Origin: Gammaproteobacteria bacterium
GTDB taxonomy: Bacteria; Pseudomonadota; Gammaproteobacteria; Chromatiales; Chromatiaceae
Direction of reading: 5' to 3'
Assembly (NCBI GenBank): GCA_018812525.1
Contig: JAHJDE010000149.1
Location: 1-47,433, forward strand
DNA: 47,433 bases
The notes under the pieces are model-generated. The model searched no databases. It saw only the letters and a list, made by a program, of their open reading frames with translations, and was not told the origin of the DNA. A program made the position numbers and the translations under genes. Below are positions 24,140 to 35,980 of the stretch, piece by piece; within the stretch, counting starts at the first letter, position 1, and every line of letters starts with the position of its first letter.

Positions 24140-25051
24140 CTATAAGAACGCGGGATCCATCATGTCGATAAACCGTTTGGCCTGCGGCGATAGATACTTT
24201 CCCTTGCGGATAACGATGCCGTAGCTACGGGTCGGAAAATAGTCGAGGAGATGGCGGCGAATGACCCGTTCCGTTCCATTCAGGCAGACATCGGTAACAA
24301 TGGAGATGCCCATGCCCAGTTCGACATATTTCTTGATGATCTCCCAGCCGCCAGCCTCCAGCGCCACCTTAAGCCTGAGGTTGCGGCTGGCGAAGCCCAT
24401 TTCGACAATGCGCCAGGTCGCCAGATGCCTGGGTGGCAGAATCAATCCGTACTGGGCGATATCCTCCAGGGTAACCGTTTCCAATAGACCCAGTGGATGG
24501 TCCAGCGGAGCTATCAAGGCCGGGTGATAGACCATGCTCGGTTGATAGACGATGTCGTCCGGAACCTCGATCATGGAGCCAACAGCGAAATCCGCCTCGT
24601 CCGCCCGAAGCATGGCCATGCCGTCCCGACCCGTGACATTGTGGAGCTTGAGGTGAATGCCGGGGTATTTCTGCGCAAAGCGCTGCATCGGCCCGGGCAG
24701 GATATACAGGATCGTGGACTCGCCGGCGGCAATGTTCAGTTCGCCACTATCCAGATTTCCAGCATGGGCGACGAGGGCCGCTTCAAGATTATCTATTCCC
24801 TCCACCAATGGCTGGGCCAGTTGAAAAAGCACTTGGCCCTCGGGAGTAAGTTTAATCCTGGGACCCCGCCGCTCGAAAACCACGATGCCCATTTCCCGCT
24901 CCAGTGCCTGTATCTGTAAGGAGATGGTGGGCTGACTGAGGCAGAGGGATTCCGCCGCTTCACTGATGCTGCCTATCTGCGCCGCACGGCAAAAGGCGCG
25001 CAACTGTTTCAGGCGGTTCTGCTTGTAGTAGAGTTGAGGGGTGCAGGTCAT
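24140..25051 (-). CDS. LysR-type transcriptional regulator, CysB-like
   Basis: 303 residues. The N-terminal winged helix-turn-helix is clear: LKQLRAFCRAAQIGSISEAAESLCLSQPTISLQIQALE (within 14-52), then FERRGPRIKLTPEGQ. The effector domain (about 100-295) shows GELNIAAGESTILYILPGPM and ADFAVGSMIEVPDDI, with EIIKKYVELGMGISIV near the end, an arrangement seen in CysB-type regulators. It is divergent from rnfB with a 367-bp spacer, so it is the likely regulator of the Rnf/2-oxoacid oxidoreductase cluster. The effector cannot be deduced. Confidence 0.88.
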   Translation of the reverse strand: MTCTPQLYYKQNRLKQLRAFCRAAQIGSISEAAESLCLSQPTISLQIQALEREMGIVVFERRGPRIKLTPEGQVLFQLAQPLVEGIDNLEAALVAHAGNLDSGELNIAAGESTILYILPGPMQRFAQKYPGIHLKLHNVTGRDGMAMLRADEADFAVGSMIEVPDDIVYQPSMVYHPALIAPLDHPLGLLETVTLEDIAQYGLILPPRHLATWRIVEMGFASRNLRLKVALEAGGWEIIKKYVELGMGISIVTDVCLNGTERVIRRHLLDYFPTRSYGIVIRKGKYLSPQAKRFIDMMDPAFL

Positions 25052-25300: not shown

Positions 25301-25331
25301 ATGCAAATATTAAAGATTGAAATAATTGCAT
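25301..25331. promoter_or_regulatory. Candidate operator/promoter region of the divergent lysR-rnfB pair
   Basis: ATGCAA (25301-25306) and TTGCAT (25326-25331) form an inverted repeat with a 19-base AT-rich spacer. The surrounding 25285-25340 stretch is the only AT-rich part of the spacer. A loose promoter for rnfB can be read as TTGAGA (from 25295) and TGAAAT 17 bases later. LysR-type regulators bind AT-rich dyads in such spacers. Confidence 0.4.
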
Positions 25332-25418: not shown

Positions 25419-26303
25419 GTGCAAGGCTGGCTAGACCTGCAAAATATCGTGGTCGCCACTCTCTTCATGACCGGGCTGGGCGGACTCCTGGCAATGCTGT
25501 TGGTGCTTGCAAACCGAAAGCTGTGGGTCTACGAAGACCCTCGCATCGACGAGGTAGAGGAATTGCTGCCTCACTCCAACTGTGGGGCTTGCGGCACTGC
25601 GGGCTGTCGCCCCTTTGCGGAGGCGCTGATCGCCGGCGAGGTTATCCCCGGCCAATGCACCGTCAACAGCCGGGAGATGAATGAAGAGATCGCCCACTAC
25701 CTGGGTGTAGACGCGGGAGATGTGGAACAGCGGGTCGCCCGGCTGGCCTGCGCCGGCGGGGCCAACGTGGCGCGCATGCGCGCCCATTACGACGGATTGC
25801 CCACCTGTCGGGCGGCTGCGGCCGTGGCAGGCGGACCCAAGGGATGCAGTTGGGGTTGCCTGGGCCTGGCCGATTGCGAGGATGTCTGTGAATTCGTTGC
25901 CATTACCATGGACCCGCAAGGGCTGCCAGTCGTCGAGGCGGCCAACTGCACTGCCTGTGGGGATTGCGTCGAGATCTGTCCCAAGGACCTCTTTTCCATT
26001 CAGCCCATATCCCATCGCCTCTGGGTGGCCTGCAGGAATCTTCAGCGAGACGAAAAGGCGGAGGCCGAGTGCGAGGTAGCCTGCACCGCCTGCGAGCGCT
26101 GCGCCAAGGACTCCCCTGAGGGGCTCATCCATATCCGGGACAACCTTGCCGTGATCGATTACAGCAAGAACGGACTGGCCTCCCGTGTGGCAACCGAACG
26201 CTGCCCCACCGGCGCCATTGTCTGGCTAGACGATCTGGCAGGCGCCCTCAAGGGCCGCGAGGCCAAGCGGATAATCCGCAACAGCGCCCTTCCCGTGCGC
26301 TGA
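25419..26303 (+). CDS. rnfB: Electron transport complex subunit RnfB, long type
   Basis: 294 residues from a GTG after GGGAGATTCAGA. An N-terminal membrane helix (about 9-31) leads to the Fe-S domain HSNCGACGTAGC (C55, C58, C63, C80). The rest resembles long clostridial-type RnfB, not the short 190-residue gammaproteobacterial form: CSWGCLGLADCEDVC (143-157), a full CTACGDCVEICP (177-187), and CTACERCAKDSP (222 on), in which the fourth ligand is S232. The last motif keeps only C262 in ERCP. So one [4Fe-4S] cluster appears lost. RnfB receives electrons from, or passes them to, ferredoxin. The first gene of the cluster, 137 bases before the oxidoreductase. Confidence 0.93.
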   Translation: MQGWLDLQNIVVATLFMTGLGGLLAMLLVLANRKLWVYEDPRIDEVEELLPHSNCGACGTAGCRPFAEALIAGEVIPGQCTVNSREMNEEIAHYLGVDAGDVEQRVARLACAGGANVARMRAHYDGLPTCRAAAAVAGGPKGCSWGCLGLADCEDVCEFVAITMDPQGLPVVEAANCTACGDCVEICPKDLFSIQPISHRLWVACRNLQRDEKAEAECEVACTACERCAKDSPEGLIHIRDNLAVIDYSKNGLASRVATERCPTGAIVWLDDLAGALKGREAKRIIRNSALPVR

Positions 26304-26339
26304 ATCAATTTTGTCGCAAAGATCGTTGAAAACTGCGGA

Positions 26340-26381
26340 GTGCGCAAGGGATCCATAAGTTATGCTCTCGTCCTTGCGTAC
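26340..26381 (+). other. Hairpin in the rnfB-oxidoreductase spacer
   Basis: GTGCGCAAGG (26340-26349) can pair with CCTTGCGTAC (26372-26381), 10 positions with one imperfect pair, around a 22-base loop. No T-run follows, so it looks more like an mRNA processing or stability element than a terminator. Confidence 0.35.
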
Positions 26382-26440
26382 ACCCCGCTACCTCGCAATC
26401 TCTGCGTCCTGGAACACAGCTACAGTTAAGGTGAAGAGTC

Positions 26441-29400
26441 ATGGCCGGTAAGAAAGAGCAGAAAACCTTCAAGTACCCAGGCATCCGCATGGCGATGGCC
26501 GGGAATGAGGCCGTCATCCGCTGCGAACGCGAGGCTTCGGATGCGGCCGGGGCCTATCCCATCACGCCTTCCACCGAGATGGGTGAGCTTTGGGCGGAGG
26601 AGATGGCCAAGGGTCATGTCAATATCTCGGACCGCAGTCTGATCTTCGTCGAACCCGAATCGGAACATGCGGCAGCGGCCGTTACCGCCGGCATGTCTAT
26701 GACTGGCCTGCGCGCCACCAACTTCTCGTCCGCCCAAGGCGTCGCCTTTATGCATGAGTCGCTCTACGCCGCCGCCGGCAAGCGGCTGCCTTATGTGTTG
26801 AATATCGGCTGCCGCGCCATCACCAAGGCCTCGCTCAATGTCCATTGTGGCCACGACGATTTCCACTGCATCGACGATACCGGCTTCATCCAACTCTACG
26901 CCAACGGCGCCCAGGGCGCCGCCGACCTCAACCTGATTGGCCGCAAGGTTGCCGAGCTGGCCCTAACCCCCGCCGCCGTGGGCCAGGACGGCTTCCTCAC
27001 CACCCATTTGATCGAGCCGGTGCAGGTCCCCGAACGTGAGCTGATCGCCGAATTCCTGGGCCGCCCCGATGACATCATCGACTCCCCCACACCGGCGCAG
27101 AAACTCCTTTACGGCGAGACCCGCCGCCGCATCCCCGCCATCTGGGACGTGGACAACCCGATGCAGTCGGGCACGGTGCAAAATCAGGACGCTCACATGC
27201 AGACCACGGCAGCGCAGCGTCCCTTTTTCTACGACCATGTGGAGAAGATTGCCGATCAGGTGATGGACGAGTTCTATGAACTCACCGGCCGCCGCTACAG
27301 TCGCATTGGCCTCTACAACCTAGACAAAGCGGACTATGTCATCCTCGGCATGGGTTCCATGGTGGTGCAGGCCCGTAGTGTGGCCGACTATCTGGAGAAA
27401 ACCCGCAAGCTGAAGGTCGGTGTGGTCGATCTCACTCTCTATCGCCCCTTCCCCGGCGATCTGATCGGCAAGGTATTGAAGGGCAAGAAGGGCGTGGCCG
27501 TGCTTGAGCGTACCGACCAGCCCCTGGCCGAAGACCTGCCGCTGATGCGCGAGGTGCGTGCCGCTATCTCAAAGTGCATCGAGAACGGCCAGGCGGAGAA
27601 GGGGCTGCCCTATCCCGAATACGACCGCTACACCAGCTTCAAGGATGCCCCCAGCCTCTATTCCGGTTGTTATGGCATAGGCTCTCGCGACCTCCAGCCG
27701 GAGGGGTTGATCGGCGCCATCGAGAACATGCTGCCGGACGCCCCGAAGAAGAAATTCTATTATCTCGGCATCGACTTCGTGCGTGAGGCGGCCAACCCCA
27801 AGCAGGAGATCCATGTCCAGAAGGTGCTCGATGCCTACCCCAGGGTCGGTGAGCTGTCGGTGCATGGCTCCGAGAACCCCAACCTGATGCCCGAGGGCTC
27901 CATCACCGTGCGCATGCACTCGGTGGGGGGCTGGGGGGCCATCACTACCGGTAAGAATCTGGTGATGACCCTCTACGACCTGCTCGGCTACGAGATCAAG
28001 GCCAACCCCAAATACGGTTCTGAGAAGAAAGGCCAGCCCACAACCTATTTCTTGTCAGCGGCACCGACCCCGATCCCGCTTAACTGCGAATACTACTTTG
28101 TCGACGTGGTGCTGAGTCCCGACCCCAATGTCTTCGGCCATTCCAATCCCCTGAGCGGCCTGAAGCAGGGCGGCACCCTCATCATCCAGTCCAGCCTTGC
28201 GAGCCCGGATGCGGTCTGGGCCAGCTTCCCGCGCTGGATGCAGCAGCAAATCGTCGCCAATGATATTCATGTCTTCTACCTCGACGGTTTCAAGATCGCC
28301 CGCGAGGAGGCCAGTAATCCCGAGCTGCAACTGCGCATGCAGGGCAACGCATTCCAGGGGGCCTTCTTCGCCGGATCGCCTCTGATGAAGATGGCAGGAC
28401 TGGACGAAAAGAAGTTGTTCCAGTCCATTGAGGAACGCTTGCAGTCCAAGTTCGGCTCCAAGGGCAAACGGGTGGTGGAGGACAACCTGCGTGTGGTGCG
28501 CCGCGGTTTCATCGAGATCCACGAGATCACCGACAAGCGGGTCAGTGTCGAGAACCAGCAACAACTCAAGAAGGAAATAGGCCTGCCGGTGATGCTCAGG
28601 CAGCTTTCCCAGGGCGATGGCGGCATCTCCGACATTCACCGTTTCTGGGAGCAGACCGGCAGCTTCTACGCCAGCGGCAAGGGTTCCGACATCCTGGCCG
28701 ACCCCTATCAGGCCCTTTCCCTTGTGCCTGCGGCCACCGGCATCTTCCGCGACATGACCCAGATCCGTTTCGAGTACCCCAAATGGATCGCGGAGAATTG
28801 CACCGCTTGCGGCGACTGCTATACGGTCTGTCCGGACAGCTCCATTCCTGGTTTGGTCAATTCAATCGGTGAGGTCTTCAACAGCCTCATCACCAAGATC
28901 GAGATGGGCGGGACCCCGACCCAATTCCTGCGCCGCGAAAGCCGCAATGTGGAGAAGCGCCTGCGCGGCCTGATCAACGAGCGGGGTGAAGGGGCCAAGG
29001 TCCGTGAACTGCTCGATCAGGCAGTGCTGGAGACCATCGCCGCCGCGGAGCTGGATGAGAAGGGCATGGCCAACCTCGAAAAGGAGTTCGCCCTGTTTAT
29101 GGAGAAGATGGGGACTTTCGAATTCTCCATCACCAAGCCCTACTGGAATAGCATCGAGAAGAAAAAACCCAATGCCGGCGGTCTCTTCTCAATCACCATC
29201 AACCCTTACACCTGCAAGGGCTGCATGGAGTGCGTCGAGGTCTGCGGCGACCAGGCCCTGTTGGCGGAGCGCCAGGACCAGGCCGCCATCCAGCGTATGC
29301 GTGACGACTGGAACTTCTGGCTCGACCTGCCCACCACCGGCGAAACCTACAGCCGTATCGATGACCTCGACGGCAAGATCGGTGCCCTGGAAACCCTGCT

Positions 29401-31360
29401 GCTGGACAAGTCCTCCTATAACTCAATGAATTGTGGCGACGGTTCCTGCCTGGGCTGCGGCGAGAAGACCATCATCCACCTCTTTACCGGCACGGTGACC
29501 GCGCTGATGCAGCCTCGGGTAAAGGCGCTACTGGCCAGGCTGGATGATCTGATCGCCCGGCTGGAGCAGCATACCCGGCTGAAGCTGGCGCAGGGCGTCG
29601 ATCTGAGCGATCCCTCCGCCCTGGGCCGGGCTGCTGATAGCGCCGATGAGCTGACCCTGGCCGGGTTGAGCGAGTCCATCGACCCGGATCGTGAGAACAC
29701 CCTGGTGGACAAGGATTGGCTCAAGCGTGTCTCAGGCCTGCTCAGCGATCTGCGTAACCTTCGCCAGGCCTACCTGGCCGGACCCTCGGGACAGGGCCGC
29801 GCCGCCATGGGGATAGTCAACGCCACGGGCTGCACCTCGGTCTGGGGCTCCACCTTCCCCTTCAATCCCTATCCCTTCCCCTGGACCAGCCATCTGTTCC
29901 AGGACAGCCCCTCTGTGGCCATGGGCCTCTTCGAGGGCCACATGGCGAAAATGGCGGACGGATTCAAGGCAATCCGCCGTAGCGAACTGGAACTGGATGG
30001 GAAGTACAACGCGACAGAGCATGAGCCCTTCTTCCAGCGTTTCGACTGGAAGGGCTTCACGGATGAAGAGTGGCTGCTCTGTCCGCCAGTGGTCTCCATC
30101 GGCGGCGACGGCGCCATGTATGACATCGGTTTCCAGAATCTCTCCCGCGCCCTCGCATCAGGCATGCCGATCAAGGTGCTGGTGTTGGATACCCAGGTCT
30201 ACTCCAATACTGGTGGTCAGGCCTGTACCTCGGGCTTTATCTCCCAGGTTTCTGACATGGCCCCCCACGGCTCTAAAATGAGAGGCAAGGAGGAGATGCG
30301 CAAGGAGATGGGCCTGATTGGCATCGCCCACCGGACCTCCTATGTACTGCAGGGCAACATCAGCAATACCACCCACCTGATCGAGGGCTTTATCGACGGC
30401 CTCAACAGCCGCCGCCCCGCGCTGTTCAACGTCTATGCAGTGTGCCAGCCCGAGCATGGCGTCGCCGACGATGCCTCCCGCCGCCAATCCAAGCTGGCCC
30501 TGGAATCGCGCGCCTATCCCCTGATGAAGTACAACCCGGACCTGGGCGATACCATCGACGAGTGCATCGACCTGGAAGGCAACCCCTCCCTCGAAGAAGA
30601 CTGGCCGATGTACAACATCAGCTATCTGGACGAGAGCGGCAAGGAAGGCAGACTGGAGGTTCCCATGACCTTCGCTGATTTTGCCGCCACTGAGGCCAGG
30701 TTCCGCAAGCATTTCCGCAAGGCCCCGCCAGAAACCTGGAATGAGGCTATGGTGCCATTGCACGAGTTCCTGGATCTGGATGCGGATGAACGTGAGGGTA
30801 AATACCCCTTTATCTGGGCACTGGATGCCAAGAACCGTCTGATGCGCATGATTTGTGCCCAGGAGATGGTCACCTCCTGTGAGGAGCGCCGCCAATTCTG
30901 GCACCAGCTCAAGGGCATTGCGGGCGAAATGAACAAGGTCGATGTGAATGCGGCGGTCGAGCGGGCCAAGATTGAAATGGCCAACCGCCTCAGCTCTACC
31001 CTGCTATCCCTGGCAGCCTCTGGTAACGCTGCCACCCTTTCCGGTACGAGTGCCGGTGGTGGCAATGGGACGGCAGCAGGCGTCGCTGTCGCGGGTGGAG
31101 CCCCGGTGAACTACGAGCCCGTCTGGATCGAGACCCCGGAATGCACCGCCTGTGACGAATGCATGGACATCAACCCCAAGATATTCGGTTATAACAGCGA
31201 CAAGCTGGCGATCGTCCTAGACCCTCAGGCAGGGAGCTACAAGGATATAGTGCGCGCTGCCGAAAAGTGTACGGCCGGCTGCCTGCACCCAGGAACACCC
31301 TGGAACATGGGCGAAAAAGACGTCGAGAAACTCGTCAAGCGGGCTGCGAAGTATCAGTAA
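26441..31360 (+). CDS. Pyruvate:ferredoxin-type 2-oxoacid oxidoreductase with C-terminal ferredoxin domain
   Basis: 1639 residues; ordinary homodimeric PFOR/NifJ is about 1170-1200. The family joins 2-oxoacid + CoA to acyl-CoA + CO2 + reduced ferredoxin, reversibly. Seen in order: YPITPST (39-45; substrate Thr), GCRAIT (R125, matching the carboxylate-binding Arg), the gamma-type domain with SVGGWGAITTGKN, a two-cluster ferredoxin insert (CTACGDCYTVCPD near 787; CKGCMECVEVCGD near 924), proximal-cluster cysteines NCGDGSCLGCGEKT (near 997), a predicted coiled-coil insert of about 100 residues, NATGCTSVWG (near 1130), and the TPP motif GGDGAMYDIG (near 1221) with YSNTGGQ. A Gly/Ala-rich linker leads to an added single-cluster ferredoxin (CTACDEC from 1568; CTAGCLHP near 1610). 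Pyruvate is the likely but unproven substrate. rnfC starts directly after its stop. Confidence 0.92.
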   Translation: MAGKKEQKTFKYPGIRMAMAGNEAVIRCEREASDAAGAYPITPSTEMGELWAEEMAKGHVNISDRSLIFVEPESEHAAAAVTAGMSMTGLRATNFSSAQGVAFMHESLYAAAGKRLPYVLNIGCRAITKASLNVHCGHDDFHCIDDTGFIQLYANGAQGAADLNLIGRKVAELALTPAAVGQDGFLTTHLIEPVQVPERELIAEFLGRPDDIIDSPTPAQKLLYGETRRRIPAIWDVDNPMQSGTVQNQDAHMQTTAAQRPFFYDHVEKIADQVMDEFYELTGRRYSRIGLYNLDKADYVILGMGSMVVQARSVADYLEKTRKLKVGVVDLTLYRPFPGDLIGKVLKGKKGVAVLERTDQPLAEDLPLMREVRAAISKCIENGQAEKGLPYPEYDRYTSFKDAPSLYSGCYGIGSRDLQPEGLIGAIENMLPDAPKKKFYYLGIDFVREAANPKQEIHVQKVLDAYPRVGELSVHGSENPNLMPEGSITVRMHSVGGWGAITTGKNLVMTLYDLLGYEIKANPKYGSEKKGQPTTYFLSAAPTPIPLNCEYYFVDVVLSPDPNVFGHSNPLSGLKQGGTLIIQSSLASPDAVWASFPRWMQQQIVANDIHVFYLDGFKIAREEASNPELQLRMQGNAFQGAFFAGSPLMKMAGLDEKKLFQSIEERLQSKFGSKGKRVVEDNLRVVRRGFIEIHEITDKRVSVENQQQLKKEIGLPVMLRQLSQGDGGISDIHRFWEQTGSFYASGKGSDILADPYQALSLVPAATGIFRDMTQIRFEYPKWIAENCTACGDCYTVCPDSSIPGLVNSIGEVFNSLITKIEMGGTPTQFLRRESRNVEKRLRGLINERGEGAKVRELLDQAVLETIAAAELDEKGMANLEKEFALFMEKMGTFEFSITKPYWNSIEKKKPNAGGLFSITINPYTCKGCMECVEVCGDQALLAERQDQAAIQRMRDDWNFWLDLPTTGETYSRIDDLDGKIGALETLLLDKSSYNSMNCGDGSCLGCGEKTIIHLFTGTVTALMQPRVKALLARLDDLIARLEQHTRLKLAQGVDLSDPSALGRAADSADELTLAGLSESIDPDRENTLVDKDWLKRVSGLLSDLRNLRQAYLAGPSGQGRAAMGIVNATGCTSVWGSTFPFNPYPFPWTSHLFQDSPSVAMGLFEGHMAKMADGFKAIRRSELELDGKYNATEHEPFFQRFDWKGFTDEEWLLCPPVVSIGGDGAMYDIGFQNLSRALASGMPIKVLVLDTQVYSNTGGQACTSGFISQVSDMAPHGSKMRGKEEMRKEMGLIGIAHRTSYVLQGNISNTTHLIEGFIDGLNSRRPALFNVYAVCQPEHGVADDASRRQSKLALESRAYPLMKYNPDLGDTIDECIDLEGNPSLEEDWPMYNISYLDESGKEGRLEVPMTFADFAATEARFRKHFRKAPPETWNEAMVPLHEFLDLDADEREGKYPFIWALDAKNRLMRMICAQEMVTSCEERRQFWHQLKGIAGEMNKVDVNAAVERAKIEMANRLSSTLLSLAASGNAATLSGTSAGGGNGTAAGVAVAGGAPVNYEPVWIETPECTACDECMDINPKIFGYNSDKLAIVLDPQAGSYKDIVRAAEKCTAGCLHPGTPWNMGEKDVEKLVKRAAKYQ

Positions 31361-32701
31361 ATGAACCTAGCGCAACTCCTCGGCATGGCAAGCTTCAGAC
31401 ACGGCATCCATCCGCCGGACCATAAAGCGGAGACGGCGTCGCGGCCCATAAGGCGCATGCCTTTTCCGCCCCGGTTGGTGCTCCCGCTTGCCCAGCATAT
31501 CGGGAAACCGGCGCTGCCTCTGGTGCAGAAAGGCCAGGAGGTCGTGCGCGGACAACCGATAGCCGCCGCTGACGGCTATGTGTCGTCGCCGATCCACGCC
31601 CCCGCGACGGGACGGGTAAGGGGCATCGAGCTGATGCCTTCGGCGCGCGGCCCCAAGGAACCGGCAATCCTGCTCGATGTGTACGAGAGTGCAACCCAGG
31701 AGGTGCTCTGGGGTTCGCCGAGGAAGATGGGGGAATTGACGCCGGAGGAAATCGTCCAGGCAGTCTGGGACAGCGGAATGGTCGGTTTGGGAGGCGCGGC
31801 CTTCCCTTCCCATGTGAAGCTGGCCCCCCCAAAGGGGCTTGAGGTCGATGTGCTGGTGGTCAACGGCTGCGAGTGCGAACCCTATCTGACTTGTGACTAC
31901 CGCATGATGCTGGAGTGGACCGATGACCTGGTGCGCGGCACTCGCTACGCGATGCTCGCCCTGGGCGTGAAGAAGGCGGTCATAGGCATTGAAGATAATA
32001 AAATGGATGCGGTGCGCAGGATCTCAGATCGAATATCGGCCGGATCGGGGATCAGCGTCAAGGCGGTGGAGACCAAGTATCCCCAGGGCGCCGAGAAGAT
32101 GCTGATCAAATCGGCGCTCGGACGCGAGGTCCCTGCCGGAGGGCTTCCTGCCCAGATAGGCGTGGTGGTCAACAACGTGGGGACCCTGGCGATGCTGGGC
32201 CGGCTCCTGCCGCGTGGCGAGGGCCTGATAGAGCGTGTCATCACCGTGACGGGGCCGGGCGTGGAACGCCCAGGCAACTATCTGGTACCCATCGGCGCCA
32301 CGGTGGGTTTCGTGTTGAAGCAGGCCGGCCTGAAGGACGTCAGGGCGGAGGTAATTCTGGGCGGCCCCATGATGGGGTCTTCGGTGCCCTCTTTCGATAC
32401 ACCAATCATCAAGGGGACCTCCGGTGTCCTGGTGCTGAACGAACCAGCCATCGGCGCGGAGGACCAACGAATCTGGCCCTGCATCAAATGCGGCCGTTGC
32501 CTCAGCGCCTGCCCGATGCATCTCAACCCCTCCATGCTGGGTCTGCTGGCAGCCAAGCGTGAATTTGACACCATGGCAGAGAAGTACCACCTGTTCGACT
32601 GTTTCGAATGCGGCTGTTGCTCCTACACCTGCCCCTCAAATATCCCCCTGGTGCAGTACTTTCGCATCGCCAAATCGATCCAGCGTGAGAAAGCGGCATG
32701 A
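31361..32701 (+). CDS. rnfC: Electron transport complex subunit RnfC
   Basis: 446-residue peripheral subunit carrying NADH/FMN and two [4Fe-4S] clusters, the NAD(H) end of the Rnf pump. It shows SSPIHAPATGRVRGIE (biotinyl-like fold), GLGGAAFPSHVKL and VVNGCECEPYLTCDYR (FMN/NADH site), VETKYPQGAEKMLI, and the cluster motifs CIKCGRCLSACP and CFECGCCSYTCP. It is the short form without the long Ala-rich C-terminal repeats of E. coli RsxC. The ATG directly abuts the TAA of the oxidoreductase gene, so the two are surely co-transcribed. Confidence 0.96.
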   Translation: MNLAQLLGMASFRHGIHPPDHKAETASRPIRRMPFPPRLVLPLAQHIGKPALPLVQKGQEVVRGQPIAAADGYVSSPIHAPATGRVRGIELMPSARGPKEPAILLDVYESATQEVLWGSPRKMGELTPEEIVQAVWDSGMVGLGGAAFPSHVKLAPPKGLEVDVLVVNGCECEPYLTCDYRMMLEWTDDLVRGTRYAMLALGVKKAVIGIEDNKMDAVRRISDRISAGSGISVKAVETKYPQGAEKMLIKSALGREVPAGGLPAQIGVVVNNVGTLAMLGRLLPRGEGLIERVITVTGPGVERPGNYLVPIGATVGFVLKQAGLKDVRAEVILGGPMMGSSVPSFDTPIIKGTSGVLVLNEPAIGAEDQRIWPCIKCGRCLSACPMHLNPSMLGLLAAKREFDTMAEKYHLFDCFECGCCSYTCPSNIPLVQYFRIAKSIQREKAA

Positions 32702-32795
32702 AGCCCTTAATCTCACCACTGATACCACGGGGCGTTGCTCTTGCACATGAGAAACTCTGTGCTCTCCGCGTCTCCCTGAATAAAACAGCATTGCG

Positions 32796-33842
32796 ATGAA
32801 AAAGAAAGCGCAACTCGAATTACGAACCTCGCCGCATGCCCATGCCGGGCAGGATGTGGTGCAGATCATGCGCAATGTGGTCTGGGCCACAGTCCCCATA
32901 GCGGGGTTTGCCGTTTGGCAATACGGACTGTCGGTATTGGCCCTGCTGCTCACGGCCGTCCTGAGCTGCCTGTTGAGTGAACGGCTCTTCAACCGGCTCG
33001 GCCTGGAGCCCAGTACCCTGGGCGACTGGTCGGCCAGCATCACCGGTATCCTGCTGGCCCTGACCCTGCCCCCCGGCTTTCCCCTTTGGATGACGGCCGT
33101 AGCAGGGATCATCGCCATCGCCATGGGCAAGGCCCTGTTCGGGGGGCTGGGTATGAATCCCCTCAATCCCGCCTTGGTGGGCCGCGCCTTCGTACAGGCC
33201 GCCTTTCCCGTCGCCATCACCACCTGGACCCCGTCCCTGTTCAATGGGCGCTTTACCAGCTTCATCCCTACAACACTGACGGCGCCCTTCCAACGGCCGC
33301 CAGCTATTACCGAATGGGTCCAGGGCGTTGCGGTGGACAGCTTTGCCGGGGCAACACCGCTGGCGCTCATGAAGTTCGAACATGCCGCGACGCCGGTCAC
33401 CGACCTTATTCTGGGAGCCACTGCGGGCTCCACGGGCGAATCTGCCCTGGTGATCCTGGTGTGCGGCCTCTATCTCGCCTTCCGCCGCATGCTTGACTGG
33501 CGCATCCCGGTATCGATCATGGCCGCCACCGCCTTTCTTTCCTGGGCCTACCAGCTCATCGAGCCGACCGCACCCGGCCCCCTGTTCATGCTTTGCTCCG
33601 GCGGTCTGATGCTCGGCGCCTGGTTCATGGCCTCCGATATGGTCGGTTCCCCGGTAACCCCTTTGGGCGTGGTGATCTACGGTCTGCTGATCGGCTTCAT
33701 CACGGTAGCCGTGCGCCTCTTCGGGGGGCTTAACGAAGGGGTGATGTACGCCATCCTGCTCGGCAATGCGGCGACCCCGCTGATTGACCAATGGACCCAG
33801 CCCAGGGTGTTCGGCGCGGATGGCAGGAGAAAACAGGCGTGA
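32796..33842 (+). CDS. rnfD: Electron transport complex subunit RnfD
   Basis: 348-residue polytopic membrane subunit. ELRTSPHAHAGQDVVQIMRNVVWA at the N terminus, ITGILLALTLPPGFPLW and GKALFGGLGMNPLNPALVGRA are family marks. DSFAGATPLALMK holds T187, the expected site of covalent FMN. A 94-base spacer separates it from rnfC; it ends in a GTGA overlap with rnfG. No apbE flavin transferase gene lies in the window, so it must be elsewhere. Confidence 0.96.
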   Translation: MKKKAQLELRTSPHAHAGQDVVQIMRNVVWATVPIAGFAVWQYGLSVLALLLTAVLSCLLSERLFNRLGLEPSTLGDWSASITGILLALTLPPGFPLWMTAVAGIIAIAMGKALFGGLGMNPLNPALVGRAFVQAAFPVAITTWTPSLFNGRFTSFIPTTLTAPFQRPPAITEWVQGVAVDSFAGATPLALMKFEHAATPVTDLILGATAGSTGESALVILVCGLYLAFRRMLDWRIPVSIMAATAFLSWAYQLIEPTAPGPLFMLCSGGLMLGAWFMASDMVGSPVTPLGVVIYGLLIGFITVAVRLFGGLNEGVMYAILLGNAATPLIDQWTQPRVFGADGRRKQA

Positions 33843-34567
33843 AAGGACAAGATGCCCAGGCGCCCGCAACGCCGGCTCTCAAGATGCTGATAGTACTCGG
33901 TGGCATCGCCATGCTGTCGGGCTTTCTGGTGGTGCTAGTCGACCAGTTGACCAAGCCGATCATCGAGGCTAACCAACAGCGAGCCATTGAGCGGGCGGTG
34001 TTCAAGGTGGTGCCGGGAGCGACCCTGCGCCGCAATTACCTTGTCACCCCTGAAGGCGTGCACCCTGCCGGTGATGTCGGCAGCGGCAATGGCATCACTG
34101 TATACGGGGGATATGACGATCAGGGCCGGCTCAAGGGCATTGCCGTCAATGGTGCCGGCATGGGATATGCCGGTCTTGTCTATTTGCTCTACGGCTACGA
34201 CCCGGACTGCGCTTGTATCCGCCGTTTTGAAGTACTGAAGATGACGGAGACACCGGGCCTGGGCGACAAGATCATCAGTGACGCGGGTTTCCAGGCCAAC
34301 TTCATTGGTCCTGACGGGCTATCCGCCCGTCTCAACGGGGCCGGCACAGCCCTTGAGAACGCCATCCTCACCGTCAAGCACGGAAGTAAGCAACATCCCT
34401 GGGAGATAGATGCCATCTCCGGGGCGACCATCACTTCCAAGGCGGTAGGCAAGGCGCTGAATCAGTCGGCTCAGAATCTGCTGCCGCTACTGGCTCCCCA
34501 TCTGGAGCAACTGAAGCGGATCGACATTGCCCCTGCAGAGTCCCCCACCAATGGGAAAGGAGAATAG
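33839..34567 (+). CDS. rnfG: Electron transport complex subunit RnfG
   Basis: 242-residue subunit with one N-terminal membrane helix (LIVLGGIAMLSGFLVVLVDQL) and a periplasmic FMN domain. DAISGATITS carries the flavinylation threonine (T197), modified by ApbE in this family. MTETPGLGDKI is also conserved. The GTG at 33839 overlaps the rnfD stop and is preceded by GGAG; a farther in-frame ATG at 33791 would lie within rnfD and is not needed. Confidence 0.94.
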   Translation: MKGQDAQAPATPALKMLIVLGGIAMLSGFLVVLVDQLTKPIIEANQQRAIERAVFKVVPGATLRRNYLVTPEGVHPAGDVGSGNGITVYGGYDDQGRLKGIAVNGAGMGYAGLVYLLYGYDPDCACIRRFEVLKMTETPGLGDKIISDAGFQANFIGPDGLSARLNGAGTALENAILTVKHGSKQHPWEIDAISGATITSKAVGKALNQSAQNLLPLLAPHLEQLKRIDIAPAESPTNGKGE

Positions 34568-34570
34568 GCC

Positions 34571-35221
34571 ATGGGCATGAATAAGAGCGACGATGTCACC
34601 TGGGATTCCTTCGCTGAAGGCCTGTGGCGGGAAAACCCCGTGTTCGTCATGCTGCTGGGCATGTGTCCTGTGCTGGCGGTGACGAACTCCGCCATCAATG
34701 CCCTGGCCATGGGCCTGGCAACCACCTTTGTGCTGATGGCGTCCGGCCTGCTGATCTCCCTTATGCGACATCTGATACCCAAACAGGTCCGCATTGCCGC
34801 CTTCATCGTCATCATCGCCACCTTCGTCACCGTCGTCGATTATTCGATCCAAGCGATCTCCCTGGATCTCTACAACGCGCTCGGCGCCTTCATCCAGCTC
34901 ATCGTGGTCAATTGCATCATCCTGGGCCGCGCCGAGGCCTACGCCTCGAAACGTCGTCCGGCCCTGGCCCTGATCAGCGCCCTTGGCATGGGGGCCGGCT
35001 TCACCTTTGCCCTGCTCTGCCTGGGTGTGGTGCGGGAGATCCTGGGTGCCGGGGCCTTGTTCGGTTTCGACCTGTTTGGGGCCAATTTCGAACCCTGGGT
35101 GGTGATGGTCCTGCCGCCGGGGGGATTCATCATCCTGGGGGCCTGGTTGCTGCTGTTCGATTGGCGGAAACACCGCACTCAATTGCGTTCGCTGCAAGAG
35201 GAGAGGGGCCGTGCCGGCTGA
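34571..35221 (+). CDS. rnfE: Electron transport complex subunit RnfE
   Basis: 216-residue membrane subunit paired with RnfA; the two hold a [2Fe-2S] cluster within the membrane. It shows NPVFVMLLGMCPVLAVTNSA, where the Cys is a predicted cluster ligand, and LIVVNCIILGRAEAYAS, the second Cys. Six membrane helices are expected. The start is ATG (MGMNKSDD) after AAAGGAGAATAGGCC, three bases after the rnfG stop, and the end overlaps rnfA by 11 bases. Confidence 0.96.
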   Translation: MGMNKSDDVTWDSFAEGLWRENPVFVMLLGMCPVLAVTNSAINALAMGLATTFVLMASGLLISLMRHLIPKQVRIAAFIVIIATFVTVVDYSIQAISLDLYNALGAFIQLIVVNCIILGRAEAYASKRRPALALISALGMGAGFTFALLCLGVVREILGAGALFGFDLFGANFEPWVVMVLPPGGFIILGAWLLLFDWRKHRTQLRSLQEERGRAG

Positions 35222-35795
35222 AAGTCTGAGCTTTATCTTCATCAACGCGGCCCTGGCGAACAATTTCGTTCTGGCACTGTTCCTGGGGCTCTGTCCCTTC
35301 CTTGGCGTCTCCGGCAAAATGGAGACGGCCGTGCCCATGGGTCTTGCCACCAGCTTCGTCATGCTGGTCAGTTCCATCTGCGCCTTCGGCATCAATTTGT
35401 TGCTGACCAGCTTCGACATCGAGTTCCTGCGTCTGATCAGCTATATCGCCGTCATAGCCAGTGCCGTGCAGTTGGTCGAGATGACCCTGAAGAAATTCAG
35501 CCCAGGGCTGTTCCGGGCGCTCGGCATCTTCCTGCCGCTGATTACCACCAATTGTGCCATCCTGGGTCTGGCACTTTTCCAGACCTTCAAGGAATACAAC
35601 TTCCTCCAATCCCTGGTCTACGCACTTGGGGCCGGGGCCGGATTTACCCTTGCCATTGTGCTGATGGCGGGTCTCCGGCAGCGACTGGCACTGGCCAATC
35701 TGCCAACACCGGCCCGGGGGGCGGCTATGAGTCTGATGCTGGGCGGCCTGCTGTCGCTAGCCTTCATGGGCTTCGCCGGGATGGGTGGACACTGA
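35211..35795 (+). CDS. rnfA: Electron transport complex subunit RnfA
   Basis: 194-residue membrane subunit, the pseudo-symmetric partner of RnfE. It shows NAALANNFVLALFLGLCPFLGVSGK with the first conserved Cys and LPLITTNCAILGLALF with the second. It starts with GTG after AGGAGAGGGGCC, within the end of rnfE, and its TGA overlaps the ATG of the small Cys protein (TGATG), so all are translated together. Confidence 0.96.
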   Translation: MPAESLSFIFINAALANNFVLALFLGLCPFLGVSGKMETAVPMGLATSFVMLVSSICAFGINLLLTSFDIEFLRLISYIAVIASAVQLVEMTLKKFSPGLFRALGIFLPLITTNCAILGLALFQTFKEYNFLQSLVYALGAGAGFTLAIVLMAGLRQRLALANLPTPARGAAMSLMLGGLLSLAFMGFAGMGGH

Positions 35796-35980
35796 TGTAT
35801 TGGGATTACCTGATTGCCATGACGGTCATCCCTCTGCTGCTGGTTGGCTGGCAGTTCGTGCAATGGGCGTCACATCGATTTGCCAAGACCCACCCGGAAT
35901 TTGGTCCCCCGAGGAAGGAGGGTGGCGGCTGCGGCAGTTCCTGTGGCTGCCATGGCGGCAAGTGCCAAAAGCCTGACTAG
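35795..35980 (+). CDS. Small Cys-rich membrane protein encoded with rnfA (candidate Rnf maturation factor)
   Basis: 61 residues, too short for most gene callers. It starts MYWDYLIAMTVIPLLLVGWQ, one predicted membrane helix (about 6-23), then a basic stretch and a tail with four cysteines: C46, C50, C52 and C57 in CGSSCGCHGGKC. The ATG overlaps the rnfA stop (TGATG), so it is translationally coupled. I do not know a named Rnf family for it. In build it matches NqrM (DUF539), a one-helix, four-Cys protein needed to mature the related Na+-NQR, and also FeoB-associated Cys-rich proteins. By inference it may deliver iron for the RnfA-RnfE [2Fe-2S] centre. Confidence 0.8.
   Translation: MYWDYLIAMTVIPLLLVGWQFVQWASHRFAKTHPEFGPPRKEGGGCGSSCGCHGGKCQKPD

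Follow-up and report, generated by a model that had tools for sequence, protein, structure and literature searches.

Pyruvate:ferredoxin oxidoreductase genes within rnf operons of sulfur- and iron-oxidizing bacteria and some Planctomycetota suggest a direct coupling of pyruvate metabolism to an ion gradient

The PFOR-Rnf operon and its oxidoreductase

The window analysed here is a stretch of 47,433 nucleotides (nt) from contig JAHJDE010000149.1 of a Chromatiaceae genome (GCA_018812525.1), and it holds a compact operon at positions 25419-35980 in which a gene for a pyruvate:ferredoxin oxidoreductase (PFOR) of 1639 amino acids (aa) lies among the genes of an Rnf complex. Open reading frame (ORF) calls and family matches gave the order rnfB, PFOR, rnfCDGEA and a small Cys-rich ORF, all on the (+) strand. 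A first-pass annotation had described this gene order on a single strand and its tight spacing; ORF calls, NCBIfam and Pfam bore out the order, and the recomputed gaps from rnfB to the last ORF (137, 0, 94, -52, 3, -11 and -4 nt) agreed with the spacing. The rnfB gene (25419..26303) starts with GTG, a longer TTG-started frame opening at 25326, and encodes a long form of 294 aa with 20 Cys, an N-terminal anchor, an FeS domain and Fer4 motifs; it reached 81 bits against TIGR01944 (cut-off 69). Scores above cut-off were also obtained for rnfC (31361..32701, 446 aa; TIGR01945, 496 bits, cut-off 246), rnfD (32796..33842; TIGR01946, 285 bits, cut-off 207), rnfE (34571..35221; TIGR01948, 234 bits, cut-off 213) and rnfA (35211..35795; TIGR01943, 237 bits, cut-off 229). 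For rnfG (33791..34567) the TIGR01947 score of 86 bits is under the cut-off of 102, and the gene was recognized by its FMN_bind domain (PF04205). All six genes rnfABCDGE are present in this single operon.

The PFOR gene (26441..31360), between rnfB and rnfC, encodes the Pfam domains POR_N, PFOR_II, POR and TPP_enzyme_C with intact catalytic motifs, and the protein matches the solved PFOR 6cin with E=1.5e-79. Its score of 399 bits against TIGR02176 is far under the equivalog cut-off of 911 bits, so that on sequence grounds we regard it as a member of a divergent subfamily and not as a standard NifJ; pyruvate is its predicted substrate. We found the thiamine pyrophosphate (TPP) site, the substrate-binding Thr/Arg motifs and the proximal and domain-V [4Fe-4S] cysteines that make up a PFOR. 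The PITPS motif of domain I lies at residues 36-56 (26546..26608), the two [4Fe-4S] motifs of domain V comprise Cys 787/790/793/797 (28763..28858) and Cys 925/928/931/935 (29192..29296), and the TPP/Mg motif GGDG...YSNTGGQ spans residues 1214-1262 (30080..30226). The roles of these residues are presumably those described in the D. africanus literature. Among 65 aligned type-1 PFORs, the type found in the window, the eight domain-V Cys (both motifs in 65/65 rows) and three of the four proximal-cluster Cys were invariant, and the fourth (1335) was present in 98%. PITPS, the Glu and Arg motifs and GGDG...SNTGGQ were seen in the displayed type-1 rows and align with the solved PFORs 6cin and 1b0p.

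The catalytic core is followed by a Gly/Ala-rich linker, residues 1521-1556 (31001..31108), predicted to be disordered with a local distance difference test score (pLDDT) of < 50, and by a tethered single-cluster [4Fe-4S] ferredoxin domain, residues 1557-1639 (31109..31357), which matches Fer4_13. This domain has the C-x2-C-x2-C...C motif and the predicted fold of a single-cluster bacterial ferredoxin. In an AlphaFold model covering PFOR residues 716-1639, residues 1557-1639 were placed at a pLDDT of about 70-87, and the best Foldseek matches of the whole model were PFORs. Both sequence (E=2e-5) and structure (template modelling score 0.80 of target, root-mean-square deviation 1.4, 58 columns, Foldseek E 0.14, prob 1.00) relate the tail domain to D. 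africanus ferredoxin I. Identity to the window averaged 28% in the linker (1524-1556) and 73% in the ferredoxin domain (1558-1639), which reads as the pattern of a tether carrying a conserved load.

Conservation of the gene linkage and of the ferredoxin tail

A scan of contigs gave 61 loci, from which two distant loci of Flavobacteria (L089 and L090, 26% identity) were omitted for the linkage counts. Among the 56 of the remaining 59 loci with at least 300 nt upstream, rnfB lay no more than 500 nt upstream of PFOR in 54. Downstream, rnfC followed within 700 nt in 45 of the 47 loci that included the PFOR end and at least 300 nt beyond it; the 14 of 61 loci unscored on this side were L089/L090 and 12 others without a PFOR end or with <300 nt beyond. 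The exceptions to both linkages were the same two loci, L056 and L070. According to locus titles, the hosts of these loci included symbionts of tubeworms and lucinids, Sedimenticola and Sedimenticolaceae, Beggiatoa relatives, Chromatiaceae and Gallionellaceae. Within the window's family a type-1 PFOR (at least 63% identity) was found in 19 of the 34 genomes searched, its own included, and in all 19 we read by eye an rnfC about 700 nt or less from a PFOR end, this end belonging to a PFOR piece of a broken assembly in G006, G010, G019 and G026. The first-pass annotation had named a separation of the genes in relatives as the outcome that would speak against it, and the linkage held in both the loci and the family genomes. 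Because the arrangement is kept in other genomes, chance or an assembly join is untenable as its source; the PFOR-Rnf arrangement is real and conserved.

In a sample of the phylum searched at E<=1e-200, type-1 PFOR occurred in 2 of 397 other genomes. Gallionellaceae had this PFOR in 36 of 100 genomes, and in 25 of 27 within one genus. In Planctomycetota, 47 of 343 genomes matched at the looser E<=1e-100, types being mixed and the genome of locus L072 among them, and in the phylum of genome G454 (hereafter delta) one of 46 genomes matched, namely delta itself. In a tree of RnfC with 39 rows, for which 10 of 48 loci tried yielded no row, the PFOR-linked RnfCs stood apart from two further RnfCs (L101 and L102) that Beggiatoa relatives possess.

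Presence of the tail was counted over 104 unique C-termini, using only matches that extended to query residue 1440, a rule by which L089/L090 fell out. Six half-PFOR ends, seven homologues without an active site (pseudo-PFORs, see below) and three type-3 loci were kept outside the two-by-two count. An in-frame tail was present in 79 of 80 Rnf-linked catalytic PFORs and in one of eight PFORs without an adjacent Rnf or flavoprotein gene (L056; the tail-less ones are L070 and L166-L171), giving [[79,1],[1,7]] with a Fisher p=1e-8 that is inflated by the shared ancestry of non-independent loci. In the single exception among the linked PFORs (L025:1423-6093) the frame is broken within the linker and the ferredoxin domain is encoded in another frame, by either a real split or a sequencing error. 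The tail-less L167-L170 carry SNTGGQ and proximal CxGC motifs. A similar tail was found in type-3 PFORs (about 35% identity), three of three of which adjoin a gene for a putative NAD(P)/FAD partner of 951-968 aa (L091:2827-10679, L093:2722-10796, L094:1-6582). The partner in L091, the sole one scanned, contained Pyr_redox_2, Fer4_20, DHODB Fe-S and NAD_binding_1 domains, and the pair is possibly an NAD(P)-linked PFOR that works without Rnf. From the Rnf-linked and type-3 PFORs together we conclude that the ferredoxin tail tends to accompany a dedicated redox partner.

Related Rnf operons and neighbouring genes

The window's genome (G000) has three rnfC genes, one in the window, one on contig C33 (643-aa frame), taken as the canonical copy, and one on contig C208. 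The second Rnf operon on C208 (rnf2; L009:1725-18696) has the order NuoF-like gene, korA, korB, an 823-aa half-PFOR (PFORc), rnfB, a 1531-aa PFOR homologue (PFORb) and rnfCDGEA. In all five PFORb rows the eight domain-V Cys are kept, and the four proximal Cys, the TPP motif and PITPS are all gone; the tethered ferredoxin of this operon sits on PFORc. The Rnf operon of delta, whose contig ends past rnfG, likewise encodes a 1423-aa PFOR homologue that has lost the active site with its TPP/Mg motif and kept the eight domain-V cysteines. PITPS is gone from the displayed pseudo-PFORs. Retention of these cysteines is what one would expect if such proteins serve the Rnf complex as a structural conduit for electrons. 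The PFOR tree joins the delta and gammaproteobacterial pseudo-PFORs on long branches, from which we draw neither one loss nor two. In the Lamellibrachia symbiont G021, KorAB, half-PFOR, RnfB and pseudo-PFOR are followed by sucCD (L124:1637-15200), and rnfCDGEA lies on another contig (L123). On contig C111 of genome G012 (168-193 kb), a citrate-lyase-type match (PF16114, 168.1-168.6 kb) was located about 9 kb from a KorAB-Rnf operon that begins at about 178 kb.

Complete planctomycete operons on a single strand were found in L159 and L165, with the order korA, korB, a protein of about 333 aa, rnfB, PFOR with ferredoxin tail, rnfC, rnfD, rnfG, rnfE and rnfA. L072 and L122 are two contigs of a single planctomycete genome, each with half of the korAB-PFOR-Rnf operon, and the other fetched planctomycete loci show parts of it, the ORF caller hiding genes in GC-rich DNA. 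The protein of about 333 aa (L159:11870-12871, L165:13659-14657, L155:10709-11707), encoded between korB and rnfB in L159 and L165, occupies the same operon slot as the gammaproteobacterial PFORc and has weak profile similarity to it (hhalign probability 62, P=7.5e-5, from shallow alignments). The RnfB of the window could be aligned with those of rnf2 and of the delta and planctomycete operons. A supposed RnfB-PFOR fusion in a long ORF of L072 was rejected, the RnfB match being in a different frame.

Divergent from the operon in the window, a CysB-like LysR regulator is encoded on the (-) strand (24140..25051; NCBIfam CysB family, score under cut-off). Of the 51 loci with at least 3 kb upstream, 23 have a LysR match in the 2500 nt before PFOR, Gallionellaceae loci among them. 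The last ORF of the operon (35795..35980) encodes a small protein with one transmembrane segment and a Cys-rich tail, for which a Pfam scan gave no family; of the 59 loci L030-L088, 21 have a match to it (bits > 60) behind rnfA. By look only, we take it to resemble NqrM, and it is possibly a candidate maturation factor. A scan of the window gave no Rfam match at gathering score and no tRNA.

A proposed wiring of PFOR to Rnf and comparison with known systems

The best-supported reading of these data is that PFOR is wired to Rnf by the tethered ferredoxin, and we consider it fairly probable that the operon encodes a dedicated 2-oxoacid:NAD oxidoreductase and ion pump. PFOR would interconvert pyruvate with acetyl-CoA and CO2, and low-potential electrons would leave the TPP site by way of three internal [4Fe-4S] clusters and reach a fourth one in the ferredoxin domain, which on its flexible C-terminal linker would dock on RnfB in place of soluble ferredoxin. 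From RnfB they would travel through RnfA/E, RnfG, RnfD and RnfC to NAD(H), coupled to the transport of Na+ or H+. Such a module could in principle operate either way. In the forward direction, oxidation of pyruvate at low oxygen would yield NADH and an ion gradient; backward, NADH and the gradient would drive reductive carboxylation of acetyl-CoA. We infer the contact with RnfB, the lack of a free carrier, the ion coupling of this Rnf and the direction of flow from the genes and motifs, the predicted fold of the tail, the conserved linkage and the co-occurrence of tail and Rnf. A dedicated ion-pumping module without a free ferredoxin pool had already been proposed in the first-pass annotation. 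The gene linkage agrees with the first part of this proposal, and the absence of a pool gains support because the tail tracks Rnf linkage and homologues without an active site keep the clusters of the electron wire.

Several points weigh against such a wiring. Domain V of ordinary PFORs already serves soluble ferredoxin, and the tail could be an extra electron store instead of a docking part. Confidence in the AlphaFold model is moderate (mean pLDDT 66.6, predicted template modelling score 0.57), and few independent lineages underlie the tail count; the tail-less L167 and L169, with just 108 and 367 nt left before the contig end, show no more than that rnfB is missing upstream. In delta the intact PFOR stands alone and the pseudo-PFOR of the Rnf operon is tail-less, so the tail is not universal. 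The tailed PFOR of Halobeggiatoa (L056) lies away from the Rnf genes, which are on other contigs. Here the operon has probably been dispersed, because the rnfC on a separate Halobeggiatoa contig (L119) clusters in the tree with the RnfC of Parabeggiatoa (L087), which is PFOR-linked.

The wiring might also be part of a larger assembly, a view we hold tentatively. PFOR-fold proteins would then be accessory subunits of a distinct Rnf clade, in a membrane-bound supercomplex of 2-oxoacid oxidoreductase and Rnf with built-in ferredoxin. Planctomycetota would have one operon with KorAB and PFOR, and Gammaproteobacteria two pumps, one for pyruvate (in the window) and one for 2-oxoglutarate, whose PFOR would have given up the active site and kept the wires, with the ferredoxin on the half-PFOR. 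If so, both 2-oxoacid steps could draw on the ion gradient, or contribute to it, with no need of free ferredoxin.

Oxidative and reductive use of the operon appear about equally likely, and we consider each of them rather unlikely to be the only one. In purely reductive use the ion gradient would drive NADH-dependent synthesis of pyruvate for the reverse tricarboxylic acid (TCA) cycle, and the second operon would do likewise for 2-oxoglutarate. One contig of the window's genome (L172, G000 contig C166) carries an ATP-citrate-lyase-type match, monomeric idh, sulfhydrogenase/Flx-like genes, for which we presume the Flx label, and korA, and among the genome's matches no single-chain PFOR other than that of the window has an intact active site. 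A lyase match goes with the KorAB-Rnf cluster (7/10 vs 2/23 family genomes, p=8e-4), whereas its association with the PFOR-Rnf operon is weak (7/19 vs 2/14, p=0.24); in these counts genomes were assigned by eye, relatedness was uncorrected and G001 was outside the lyase search. In addition, a separate multi-subunit 2-oxoacid oxidoreductase is encoded on contig C143, and the operon is also found in Planctomycetota. In purely oxidative use, the oxidation of pyruvate (and 2-oxoglutarate) at low oxygen would feed Rnf and conserve energy while stored glycogen is consumed. The presence of the pyruvate dehydrogenase gene aceE in the window's genome argues against this, as does the mostly autotrophic life that is generally known of tubeworm symbionts, Chromatiaceae and Gallionellaceae. 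On the other side, both TCA-type 2-oxoacid oxidoreductases are tied to Rnf in the operons of Planctomycetota, 12 of the 19 family genomes with type-1 PFOR have no lyase match, and the accessible part of a Riftia symbiont study (PMC11636981) reports that a 'PFOR(3)' isoform, which might correspond to one of these genes, rises with glycogen catabolism at low O2.

PFOR and Rnf might also be mere functional neighbours, co-transcribed and drawing on a common pool of soluble ferredoxin, with the C-terminal domain only speeding exchange. It is general knowledge that the PFOR-Rnf metabolism of fermenters uses free ferredoxin, and L056 has the tail without an adjacent Rnf. However, the tail is missing in 7/8 relatives without a neighbouring redox partner gene, PFOR is placed between rnfB and rnfC in distant groups, Planctomycetota included, and pseudo-PFORs kept in Rnf operons would be senseless as suppliers of a pool, which makes a shared pool quite unlikely in our view. 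Electron supply to nitrogenase by NifJ plus Rnf, a role credited to Rnf in Sideroxydans in the accessible text of PMC5178258, is very improbable and was rejected for lack of co-occurrence with nif, since the window's genome, for which 100% completeness is listed, gave no nifH at E<=1e-60 and nifH was above cut-off in 7/19 type-1 family genomes vs 8/15 without type 1 (p=0.49).

That PFOR lies inside rnf operons, both in sulfur- and iron-oxidizing bacteria and in some Planctomycetota, suggests that the making and breakdown of pyruvate are directly coupled to an ion gradient. If electrons are channelled from PFOR to Rnf, oxygen-exposed autotrophs could do low-potential carbon chemistry without electron leak from soluble ferredoxin, and a pseudo-enzyme converted into an electron wire would add a new element to a respiratory complex. 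In open PMC papers, as far as their text was accessible and with subscription papers and supplements outside the search, no description of PFOR within an Rnf operon was found. The function of Rnf in iron-oxidizing Gallionellaceae is stated as unknown in the part consulted of PMC10734462, the main text of which has no occurrence of 'pyruvate', and RNF and PFOR/OGOR isoforms of the Riftia symbiont are listed with function or direction unknown in the accessible part of PMC11636981. The operon links Rnf and PFOR and so gives Rnf a concrete partner.

Compared with single-chain PFOR/NifJ of Moorella (6cin) and D. africanus (1b0p/1kek), the window PFOR has the same domain order, active-site motifs and domain-V and proximal cluster cysteines, but is about 400 residues longer, with extra helical stretches, and adds the linker and the C-terminal single-cluster ferredoxin domain. 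The Rnf complexes of A. woodii, C. tetanomorphum and A. vinelandii have the same six subunits RnfB, C, D, G, E and A with their domains, whereas the window has PFOR inside the operon in the order B-PFOR-CDGEA. The reverse TCA cluster of tubeworm symbionts and Thioflavicoccus (PMC6315080), which the citrate-lyase/idh/Flx-like/korA contig of the window's genome resembles, likewise puts Rnf together with carboxylase genes of that cycle; in the published parts accessible to us it joins korABCD, Hdr-Flx, pntAB and rnfABCDGE, and a PFOR inside rnf is not described there. In NQR, according to the accessible part of PMC12174285, NqrF took the place of RnfB as the input module, and the shared theme is an Rnf that evolves at its electron-input side; unlike NQR, the operon in the window keeps RnfB and adds an upstream enzyme.

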